The position numbers and the translations under genes were made by a program. The notes below the pieces were generated by a model. The model made no database searches. It was not told the origin of the DNA and saw only the letters and a program-made list of their open reading frames with translations. A stretch of 64,000 nt of DNA from Streptomyces sp. SAI-135 (GTDB lineage Bacteria; Actinomycetota; Actinomycetes; Streptomycetales; Streptomycetaceae), in the NCBI RefSeq assembly GCF_029893805.1, contig NZ_JARXYP010000002.1, forward strand, positions 5,642,001 to 5,706,000, written 5' to 3'. This document shows, one piece after another, positions 11,949 to 15,832 of this stretch (position 1 is its first letter; every line of letters starts with the position of its first letter).

Positions 11949-12818
11949 TCACTGAGTTCGTGCGGGGGATCGCGGAACGGAATGTGCCGGGGCCTCCCCG
12001 AACCTGGCCAGCGCCAACGCCCCCGCGACGGCCACCGCGAAACCCAGCACCGCCACCCACGCCAGCCCCTCCCGGGTGCGGTCCCCGAGCCACACCACCC
12101 CCACCAGCGCGGGCCCGATCGTCTCCCCGATCACCATCCCGGCGGTCGCCGTGGTCACCGACCCCCGCTGCAGCGCCGAGGTCAGCGACACGAACGCCGC
12201 TCCACCACCGACGAGGAGCGCATACGTCGCCGGATTGGCCACCAGCGCCGACGGGGCGAGCGAGTCGATCAGCCGCACCGCCACCTCGACCACCCCGAAC
12301 CCGAACCCTGCCCCCAGCCCGAGCGCCAACGCCCGCCCCCGGTCCGGCAGCCGTCCGCCCAGCAGCGCGAGTGCGAGCACCGCGAGAGCCGTCCCGAGCA
12401 TCGCGTACTTCAGGGCCGCCGAACCGCCGCGGTCGCCCTCGGTCCCGGACGCGATCCCCAGCAGTGCCATCCCGGCGCACACCACCCCGACCGCCGCCCA
12501 CTCGCCCCCGCGCAGCCGAACCCGCAGCAGCCGCGCCGACACCACCGCGGTCACCGCCAGACTCGACGCGAGCGCCGCGCCGACCGCGTAGATCGGGATC
12601 GACCGCAACGCGGCGATCTGCAACAGGAACCCCACCCCGTCCAGAGCGAGCCCCGCCAGATACCGCCACTGCCGCACCGCCCTCAGGAACAGCGTCACCG
12701 CGAACGCCGAGCCCTCGCCACCGCCCGCGTCCGCCGCCCGTGCCGCCATCGCCTGCAGCACGGTGGCCGTGCCGAAGCAGACCGAGGCACCGAGAGCACA
12801 CACCATTCCAAAGAGCAC
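11949..12818 (-). CDS. DMT/EamA-like transporter
   Basis: A 289-residue protein made almost entirely of about ten hydrophobic helices, the usual layout of the drug/metabolite transporter superfamily. The N-terminus MVCALGASVCFGTATVLQAMA and later repeated small-residue-rich helices fit the EamA fold. It starts with GTG at 12818. The gap 12819-12943 to the divergent lipoprotein gene holds a strong G-run. The 79-base gap 11870-11948 between this gene and the MocR gene shows nothing convincing. Substrate unknown. Confidence 0.82.
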   Translation of the reverse strand: MLFGMVCALGASVCFGTATVLQAMAARAADAGGGEGSAFAVTLFLRAVRQWRYLAGLALDGVGFLLQIAALRSIPIYAVGAALASSLAVTAVVSARLLRVRLRGGEWAAVGVVCAGMALLGIASGTEGDRGGSAALKYAMLGTALAVLALALLGGRLPDRGRALALGLGAGFGFGVVEVAVRLIDSLAPSALVANPATYALLVGGGAAFVSLTSALQRGSVTTATAGMVIGETIGPALVGVVWLGDRTREGLAWVAVLGFAVAVAGALALARFGEAPAHSVPRSPARTQ

Positions 12819-12943: not shown

Positions 12944-13333
12944 ATGGCGGACGCACGCCGGCAACTTCGCTCGGGCACGGTCGCACTCGGCGGCGTGGGA
13001 CTGCTCGCCATGGCCCTGACCGCCTGCTCCTCCGACCCCGACAAGCGGTGTGTCGACCGCGACAGCTACACCCTCGGCAAGGGCTACCGGGTCGTCGCCG
13101 ACAAGAACTGCAAGTCCAGCACCTCGGTCAACGGCTCCTACTACTACGGCGGCAAGAAGAAGGGCTCCTGGGTCTCGGACGGCTCCTTCACCAAGTCCGG
13201 CAAGGGCTCCGGCAGTTCGTCGAGCAGCACGGGCGGCAGCGGCAGCGGGGGCAGCGGTGTCGACCGCGGTGGCTTCGGGAGCGGAGGCAGCGGCGACGGC
13301 GGCGGCGTCGGCAAGGGAAGCTCCGGCGGCTGA
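12944..13333 (+). CDS. Small Cys/Gly/Ser-rich lipoprotein, YgiB/DUF1190-like
   Basis: A 129-residue exported protein. An N-terminal hydrophobic run ends in a lipobox (LTAC, Cys about residue 28). The mature part has CVDRDSYTLGKGYRVVADKNC, two cysteines framing a region, then tyrosines with YYGGKKKG, and finally a long Gly/Ser-rich tail. This layout (short Cys pair, YYGG, Gly-rich tail) resembles the DUF1190 lipoproteins YgiB/YjfM that sit next to glutathionylspermidine-synthase-like ATP-grasp genes in enterobacteria. Here the ATP-grasp gene follows 17 bases later, which supports the comparison. Homology is proposed by eye only. Confidence 0.75.
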   Translation: MADARRQLRSGTVALGGVGLLAMALTACSSDPDKRCVDRDSYTLGKGYRVVADKNCKSSTSVNGSYYYGGKKKGSWVSDGSFTKSGKGSGSSSSSTGGSGSGGSGVDRGGFGSGGSGDGGGVGKGSSGG

Positions 13334-13350
13334 CGGCGGAGCCGAGCATC

Positions 13351-14535
13351 ATGCGCCGACACACCCTCACCCCCCGGCCCGGCTGGCAGCAGACCGTCGA
13401 GGCCCAGGGCCTCGTCTACCCGCTCACCCGCCACCCCGACGACTCCCTGCGCCCCTACTGGGACGAGAGCGCCTACTACTCCTTCACGCTCCCCGAGGTG
13501 GAGGCACTGGAGGAGACCGTCGAGAACCTCCACCGTATGTGCCTGGCGGCCGCCGACCACATCGTCACCGCGCACCGCTTCGCCGACCTCGGCATCACCG
13601 ACCCGCGGGTGGCCGAGGCGGTCGCCGAGTCCTGGCACCGGCGCGCCGAACTCCCCTCCGTCTACGGCCGCTTCGACCTCCGCCACGACGGCGACGGCCC
13701 GGCCAAACTGCTGGAGTACAACGCCGACACCCCCACCTCCCTCGTGGAGGCCGCCTCGCCCCAGTGGTTCTGGATGGAGGAGCGCTTCCCCGGCGCCGAC
13801 CAGTGGAACTCCCTCCACGAACGCCTCGTCGCCGCCTGGAAGAAACAGGCCGCCCTCCTGCCGCCCGGCAGCCCGCTCTACTTCGCGCACTCCAGTGCCG
13901 ACGAACTCGGCGAGGACCTCATGACGGTCGCCTACCTCAAGGAGACCGCAGAGCAGGCCGGCCTGGACACCGACTGGATCTCGATGGAGGAGATCGGCTG
14001 GGACCCCCTCTCCGGCCGCTTCGTCGACAACCAACTCCGCTTCATCCGCAGCTGCTTCAAGCTCTACCCCTGGGAGTGGCTCACCACGGACCGCTTCGCC
14101 ACCCACGTCCTCGACACCCTCGACAACGGCGGCGGCACTGGCAGCACCCTGTGGATCGAACCCGCCTGGAAGATGCTGCTCAGCAACAAGGCCCTCCTCG
14201 CGATCCTCTGGGAGCTGTACCCGGACCACCCGAACCTCCTGCCCGCCTACCTCGACGGCCCCCGGCACCTGGCCGCCACGACCGGCTACGTCGCCAAGCC
14301 GCTGCTCGGCCGCGAGGGCGCCGGAGTGACGGTGCACGAGCCCGGCACCGATGCACCGGTCCGTGAGGAGCCCTGCTGCTACCAGGAACTGGCCCCCCTC
14401 CCCGACTTCGACGGCAACCACGTGGTCCTCGGCGCCTGGGTCGTGGAGAACGAGCCGGCGGGCCTGGGCATCCGGGAGTCGTCCGGCTTGATCACCGACG
14501 AGTACGCACGCTTTTTGCCTCACGTGATCCTCTGA
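13351..14535 (+). CDS. Glutathionylspermidine synthase-like ATP-grasp amidoligase
   Basis: A 394-residue member of the GspS C-terminal/YgiC ATP-grasp family. It has the family motif LEYNADTPTSLVEA (about residue 125), metal/ATP-site acidic residues further on, and the glycine-rich KPLLGREGAGV near the C-terminus. The amidase domain of true glutathionylspermidine synthase is missing, and streptomycetes use mycothiol rather than glutathione. A different amine or peptide substrate is therefore likely. The start ATG at 13351 lies 17 bases after the lipoprotein gene, so the two are co-transcribed. The lipoprotein is a plausible partner or substrate. Confidence 0.88.
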   Translation: MRRHTLTPRPGWQQTVEAQGLVYPLTRHPDDSLRPYWDESAYYSFTLPEVEALEETVENLHRMCLAAADHIVTAHRFADLGITDPRVAEAVAESWHRRAELPSVYGRFDLRHDGDGPAKLLEYNADTPTSLVEAASPQWFWMEERFPGADQWNSLHERLVAAWKKQAALLPPGSPLYFAHSSADELGEDLMTVAYLKETAEQAGLDTDWISMEEIGWDPLSGRFVDNQLRFIRSCFKLYPWEWLTTDRFATHVLDTLDNGGGTGSTLWIEPAWKMLLSNKALLAILWELYPDHPNLLPAYLDGPRHLAATTGYVAKPLLGREGAGVTVHEPGTDAPVREEPCCYQELAPLPDFDGNHVVLGAWVVENEPAGLGIRESSGLITDEYARFLPHVIL

Positions 14536-14579: not shown

Positions 14580-14712
14580 TTCGGGCCTGTGGTGTGTGGG
14601 CGGGGGCCTGACCTCGGGGCGTGGGGGGCCTGGCCCCGGGTGCGTGGGCGGCGGGGCCTGGCCCCGGGTGCGTGGGCGGGGGCGTGGCCCCGGGTGCGTC
14701 GGTGGTGTGGGA
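14580..14712 (+). repeat. GC-rich tandem repeat, about 27 bp period, 3-4 degenerate copies
   Basis: Variants of GCGTGGGCGGGGCCTGGCCCCGGGT occur around 14597, 14622, 14643 and 14671. This is most of the long gap 14536-14980 between the ATP-grasp gene and the LLM oxidoreductase. The rest of the gap has no coding signal I trust; a GGAGG site precedes the next gene. Each GGCCTGGCC core could form a small hairpin, so the array may also end transcription of the upstream operon. Confidence 0.7.
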
Positions 14713-14980: not shown

Positions 14981-15832
14981 ATGAACATCGGCCTCGGCCT
15001 TCCCATCGACGACCCCGCCCAGCTGCTGACCTGGGCCCGGCGCGCCGACGCGAGCCCCTTCCGCACCCTCGGCCTGCTCGACCGCCTCGTCTACGACAAC
15101 CCCGAGCCCCTCGTCACGCTGGCCACCCTCGCCGGTGCCACCTCCCGCATCCGCGTCCAGACCGAGGTGCTGCTCGCACCCCTCCACAACACCGCCCTGC
15201 TCGCCAAGCAGACCGCGACCCTGGACCGCCTCTCCGGCGGCCGCTTCACGCTCGGCATCGGTGTCGGAGGCCGCGAGGACGACTGCCTGGCCGCCGGCAT
15301 CGACCTCCACCGCCGTGGCCGCCGCCTCGACGAACAGCTGACCCTGCTGCGCCGCGCCTGGTCCGGCGAACCCTACGCAGAGGGTGTCGGCCCCATCGGC
15401 CCCGCTCCCAGCACCCCCGATGGCCCCGAGGTCCTGTTCGGCGGCTTCGCCCCCGCCGCCCTCGAACGCGTCGGCCGCTTCGGCGACGGCTTCCTCGGCG
15501 CCGCCCTGCCGCCCTCCTTCATGTCCAACCTGTTCCGCGACGCCGAAACGGCCTGGCAGAAGCACGACCGCCCCGGCCACCCCCGCCTGGTCGCCCAGGC
15601 CAACGTCGCTCTCGGCCCGGACGACACCGTGGACCGGGCCCGCCGCACGCTCCGCGACTACTACGCCTTCAGCGGCCACGTCGCGTACATGGAGGCCGGC
15701 CTGCTCACCACACCGCGGCAGATCCGTGAGACGGCCGACGCCTACTTCGGCATCGGCGCCGACGAGGTGATGCTCTACTGCTGGGCCTCGGACCCGGACC
15801 AGGTCGACCGCCTCGCCGACGCGCTGTTCTGA
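14981..15832 (+). CDS. LLM class flavin-dependent oxidoreductase
   Basis: The ATG at 14981 follows CGGAGGACCCTCC, a strong ribosome site, and gives 283 residues; the longer open frame from 14867 has no such site. It starts with the luciferase-like pattern MNIGLGLP and contains RIRVQTEVLLAPLHNTALLAKQTATLD and LGIGVGGRED, typical of F420- or FMN-dependent luciferase-like monooxygenases. The protein is slightly short for the family. It stands alone, with the glyA riboswitch region downstream. The cofactor (F420 or FMN) and substrate cannot be decided from sequence alone. Confidence 0.85.
   Translation: MNIGLGLPIDDPAQLLTWARRADASPFRTLGLLDRLVYDNPEPLVTLATLAGATSRIRVQTEVLLAPLHNTALLAKQTATLDRLSGGRFTLGIGVGGREDDCLAAGIDLHRRGRRLDEQLTLLRRAWSGEPYAEGVGPIGPAPSTPDGPEVLFGGFAPAALERVGRFGDGFLGAALPPSFMSNLFRDAETAWQKHDRPGHPRLVAQANVALGPDDTVDRARRTLRDYYAFSGHVAYMEAGLLTTPRQIRETADAYFGIGADEVMLYCWASDPDQVDRLADALF

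Follow-up and report, generated by a model that had tools for sequence, protein, structure and literature searches.

The partner proteins of nearly all YgiC-like ATP-grasp ligases surveyed share a C-terminal signature, R[GS]GFG with 7-14 residues behind it and a small residue at the end. A lipoprotein-ligase gene pair of this kind occurs in Streptomyces sp. SAI-135. We consider it fairly probable that the two proteins are a substrate and its enzyme, the ligase joining an amine to the C-terminal carboxylate of the lipoprotein before export. The stretch of 64,000 nucleotides that was analysed (the window) lies inside a genome of 10.37 Mb in two contigs.

The gene pair and the ligase

The lipoprotein gene, encoding the proposed substrate, was recognised from its open reading frame and lipobox (12944..13333, forward strand, 129 aa). 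It is followed on the same strand, after 17 nt, by the gene of a stand-alone GspS-type ATP-grasp ligase of the YgiC/YjfC group (13351..14535, 394 aa, PF03738). Both reading frames bore out the first-pass annotation, which had described a lipoprotein with a Cys pair, YYGG and a Gly/Ser tail ahead of a stand-alone ligase; the RGGFG motif in that tail was absent from it. A DMT-type transporter gene is annotated upstream of the lipoprotein on the opposite strand (11949-12818), and a gene for a luciferase-like oxidoreductase, probably F420-dependent, lies downstream of the ligase (14996-15832). Right behind the ligase gene there is a G+C-rich tandem repeat with a unit of 28 bp in 4.3 copies (window 14591-14699).

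PF03738 (GSP_synth) matched the whole ligase (residues 12-393 of 394; 463.8 bits, E 6e-139), and the domain search found no amidase domain in it. The best sequence matches in the PDB were 7uk8 and 7uk6 (E. coli YgiC and YjfC), followed by GspSA and trypanothione synthetase, and Foldseek with the AF2 model of the ligase (pLDDT 94) placed 7uk6 (E 1e-39, TM 0.87) ahead of GspSA. The enzyme has the ATP-grasp synthetase fold and the catalytic residues of E. coli GspSA, of which R316, D318, E330, N332, K498, K533, R538 and R598 are conserved in the alignment, the first four corresponding to the active-site residues R107, D109, E122 and N124 of the ligase (13669..13722, forward strand; alignments A1 and A5). 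It differs from GspSA in having no amidase domain and in the replacement of T441, K607 and D610, as in YgiC/YjfC; the aligned GspSA residues, including the glutathione-site positions, were given the roles that we take them to have in that enzyme. Judged by its sequence and predicted structure, the ligase is grouped with YgiC/YjfC and not with the glutathionylspermidine synthetase, and the kinship claimed in the first-pass annotation holds in sequence, fold and active site alike. The same annotation had argued for a substrate other than glutathione on the assumption that Streptomyces makes none, and such a substrate gains support from the glutathione-site positions being changed as in YgiC/YjfC.

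NCBI names YgiC and YjfC peptide--spermidine ligases; a 2023 paper by Pederick is reportedly the source of this naming. No statement on the natural substrate of E. coli YgiC/YjfC was found in the literature searched.

The lipoprotein and its C-terminal signature

The lipoprotein, with all its features on the forward strand, begins with a signal peptide bearing an Arg-Arg stretch (RRQLRS) and the lipobox LTAC with the lipidated Cys28 (12944..13027). RR..LRS and the lipobox recur in 55/56 Streptomyces relatives, a signal that would suit Tat, by which the lipoprotein may be exported. The region from Cys36 to Cys56 (13049..13111) holds a conserved Cys pair, both members of which are invariant in alignments A3 and A7, and it is followed by YYYGG (13139..13153), whose Tyr67 and Tyr68 are invariant in alignment A3. 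The motif RGGFG (residues 108-112, 13265..13279), preceded by VD and conserved beside ligases across phyla and phages, is the proposed recognition element for the ligase. Behind it comes a 17-residue Gly/Ser tail (13280..13330) ending in SSGG, the Gly-Gly end being residues 128-129 (13325-13330) and its C-terminal carboxylate the proposed ligation site. Of the 548 window reading frames with 60 aa or more, the lipoprotein alone has R[GS]GFG in its last 35 residues. Across the whole genome the RGGFG codon pattern was near the control level (40 vs 31), and among 30 genomic sites read, several had a stop within 25 residues, including this lipoprotein, while most lay in other or short frames.

The lipoprotein matched no Pfam family at E<=1 and no NCBIfam family. 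The comparison with DUF1190 suggested in the first-pass annotation gave a divided answer: directly compared with DUF1190 (PF06693) proteins, the lipoprotein profile aligned only at the lipobox (75%), but a linkage was obtained by a chain of profile matches through other phyla. In this chain, the Streptomyces lipoproteins (A3) matched other-phyla partners that share their Cys pair and YYGG (A8) at 98.4% (E 6e-15), A8 matched a second partner set (A9) at 98.2%, and A9 matched DUF1190 (A6) at 97.7%, through the tail only, where low complexity can inflate scores. Weak DUF1190 matches were also seen in 5/11 members of a mixed intermediate alignment (A7), which includes a Streptomyces row, so the chain was run via A8. 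The Streptomyces lipoproteins, the other-phyla partners and DUF1190 (YgiB/YjfM) may then form one broad group, a grouping to be read with caution because lipoboxes and low-complexity tails inflate profile scores. At three actinobacterial loci (L074, L076 and L077) the partner has a single membrane anchor in place of the lipobox and keeps an RGG[FL]G tail.

YgiB-YgiC and YjfM-YjfC of E. coli, each a DUF1190 lipoprotein with a ligase, agree with the Streptomyces pair in gene order and in the family and fold of the ligase. YgiB and YjfM are likewise lipoproteins encoded directly upstream of the ligase, with a C-terminal RGG[FY]G and a terminal Gly-Gly (TRGGFG...RSMGG in YgiB; SRGGYGRSSSARGHWGG, that is SRGGYG...GG, in YjfM), whereas the Streptomyces lipoprotein has no DUF1190 match and a shorter Cys-pair/YYGG body. 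Similar partner ends were found in Rhizobium, Vibrio, Pseudomonas, Sulfitobacter, Roseomonas, Acinetobacter and Deinococcus, as well as in the phages Motura, Phosso and Aes012.

A loose tail pattern identified a partner in 236/261 loci, and variants such as HGGFG and RAGFG added 13 loci (249/261); several of the remaining 12 were truncated by contig ends. A strict pattern, R[GS]GFG within the last 24 residues, was applied to a broad set of 160 loci (80 from viral contigs, 80 from genomes spread over many phyla) and matched 123 of 8,708 frames, every one of the 123 on the ligase strand; 112 lay within 1.7 kb of the ligase, eight up to 2.1 kb, and three where the script had placed no ligase. The reversed motif gave four matches. 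The motif stood 7-14 residues from the end in 184/203 non-redundant tails (91%) and closer than 7 in one; with 17 residues, the window lipoprotein belongs to a longer-tailed minority outside this main range.

Gly-Gly closes all 56 Streptomyces tails (41 distinct), whereas the Gly content immediately ahead of the end would predict 18%; the codons vary little (GGC GGC at 51 of the 56 ends), so that codon bias and common ancestry may play a part and a simple probability of 56/56 is unusable. A strictly required terminal Gly was considered and rejected, because S, E and A occur as end residues in other phyla (among 213 distinct tails: G 133, S 60, E 9, A 8); the tails generally end in a small residue, not specifically in Gly. 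RGGFG-type partners are missing beside a few divergent ligases (L095, L096). On a Bacillus subtilis plasmid (L097:3410-5725) another divergent ligase, also without RGGFG beside it, stands behind a lipoprotein ending in SSGFGG and is itself followed by a poly-gamma-glutamate hydrolase family protein that may act in deconjugation, and a Roseomonas plasmid (L102:2709-5059) carries two tandem ligase genes followed by DUF350 and DUF1190. None of the matches listed in our literature search deals with an RGGFG tail in bacteria, though the motif may have been mentioned before.

Co-inheritance and phages

The ligase was found in 83/121 genomes of the genus. All 85 ligase loci of an actinobacterial set, retrieved with 1.5 kb on either side, have a partner upstream that bears this tail signature, and the pairing is far above chance. 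A search model built from 16 Streptomyces lipoproteins detected the lipoprotein in 19/19 ligase-positive and in 0/40 ligase-negative Streptomyces genomes; the survey of other genomes that the first-pass annotation had set as a test of its idea thus found the pairing conserved. Weak lipoprotein matches in G197 and G200 were discarded, as the open frames there encode another protein with no lipobox/RGGFG pattern. The lipoprotein was also present in 5/7 Streptomyces genomes with broken or partial ligase genes (G023, G040, G077, G119 and G156), where the split or partial frames are either broken genes or sequencing errors. The two genes are kept or lost together, a pattern that deletion of an operon would equally give. 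A plasmid search with the lipoprotein gave no match.

In the phage collection, 136 records, chiefly of Acinetobacter, Aeromonas and Pseudomonas phages, carry ligase genes, and 133, chiefly of Klebsiella, Erwinia, Cronobacter and Serratia phages, carry YgiB-like lipoproteins; a few records shared by the two lists are bacterial contigs. Compared by organism name, the ligase matches included none for the Klebsiella, Erwinia, Cronobacter or Serratia phage groups. All six YgiB-like lipoproteins read from Enterobacterales phages (L325-L330) keep TRGGFG and the GG end, and since their phage groups had no ligase match, this suggests that the phage proteins could be substrates for the host's ligase. 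In Achromobacter phage Motura (L088:2303-5896), genes for a homospermidine synthase, an RGGFG lipoprotein and a ligase lie together, with a DUF350-like protein two genes on.

The proposed reaction and its alternatives

The first-pass annotation had suggested the lipoprotein or its tail as the ligase's substrate, and the conserved C-terminal signature now points to the tail as the likely one. This interpretation is strengthened by comparative genomics. The chemistry is our inference, as are the carboxylate as site, the kind of amine, the timing relative to export and the role in the cell; it would run as follows. The ligase would bind RGGFG close to the C-terminal end of the freshly synthesised lipoprotein and activate the C-terminal carboxylate (Gly-Gly-COOH) with ATP as an acyl phosphate; GspS activates the C-terminal Gly of glutathione in the same way. 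The C-terminus is the proposed site because GspS-type enzymes activate a carboxylate and this is the only one common to all the tails. The activated carboxylate would be joined to an amine, probably a polyamine. The ligase is expected to be cytosolic, so that modification would have to precede export, after which the lipoprotein would leave the cytosol, perhaps by Tat, be lipidated and stand on the cell surface with a C-terminus that is capped by the amine and positively charged. Its physiological role may lie in envelope stress, as E. coli yjf suggests by analogy.

The lower limit on the distance between motif and end fits a docking element with an end that has to reach the active site. AF2 predictions from natural tail-plus-ligase sequences joined by stop readthrough (L213 as first row, TGA translated as W) left the tail disordered and undocked, and they lend no docking support to the binding of the tail by the ligase. 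Further points against capping are that not all tails end in Gly, that the motif of this lipoprotein lies outside the main 7-14 range, that a few divergent ligases lack such a partner, and that a Gly-rich tail may be conserved for other reasons. A rival reading makes the RGGFG tail a docking tag, serving as a membrane tether or in regulation, while the soluble peptide-polyamine that the ligase makes would derive from some other peptide. The motif is indeed better conserved than the end residue, and modification of the lipoprotein itself is something we infer; however, a docking tag leaves unexplained both the 7-residue minimum between motif and end and the invariant GG of otherwise varied Streptomyces tails, and no further gene is obviously part of the Streptomyces unit. 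We hold this reading to be unlikely.

It is also rather doubtful, to a similar degree, that the amine is other than a polyamine (an amino acid, an aminolipid or a cell-wall amine), in which case the tail would be anchored and not charged; this reading overlaps with the capping proposed above. Searches of the genome gave no match to AdoMet decarboxylase (PF02675), which makes spermidine doubtful as the amine, and only three aminopropyltransferase-like matches. Polyamine genes nevertheless recur near ligases, such as the homospermidine synthase of phage Motura, AdoMet decarboxylase is present in published operons (PMC11237479), and the ligase should be a cytosolic enzyme.

Prior cleavage, in which a protease would cut the tail near RGGFG and the ligase would use the newly exposed C-terminus, appears improbable. 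The motif is the most conserved part and the small residues around it would suit cleavage, but no recurrently linked protease was seen in the annotated contexts read, and the conserved distance to the end and the conserved GG would be needless. That the genes are plain operon neighbours, with Gly/Ser tails common in Streptomyces, GG arising by composition (low-complexity tails, high-GC codons favouring Gly) and a single operon deletion accounting for joint loss, is very hard to believe given GG ends so far above the expectation, the recurrence of the signature in phyla and phages whose composition differs, and the lack of the lipoprotein in all 40 ligase-negative genomes.

Two further published systems are among the closest to this pair. 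Operons of the type YjfI-PspA-DUF2491-DUF350-DUF1190-ligase (PMC11237479) have the lipoprotein and ligase core in common with Streptomyces, which has the two-gene form only; unlike these operons and the E. coli systems, its genome gave no match to DUF350 (PF03994). Peptide aminoacyl-tRNA ligases (PEARLs) likewise extend the C-terminus of a ribosomal scaffold peptide through an amide, as proposed for the Streptomyces pair, but they belong to another enzyme family, use aminoacyl-tRNA and yield a small molecule (PMC10979984). The Streptomyces pair is a variant of the YgiB-YgiC kind, and the shared C-terminal signature is the new element.

This signature names YgiB and YjfM as candidate substrates for YgiC and YjfC, and it points to specific residues in E. 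coli and Streptomyces alike. Whether exported lipoproteins are widely capped with an amine at the C-terminus under the direction of an R[GS]GFG-x(7-14)-end signal, a so far unrecognised bacterial protein modification, with YgiB and YjfM as the native substrates of YgiC and YjfC, Streptomyces holding a minimal two-gene form and phage substrates using the host's ligase, is in our judgement evenly balanced. If true, it would mean that a C-terminal protein modification charges envelope lipoproteins across many phyla and is used by phages.
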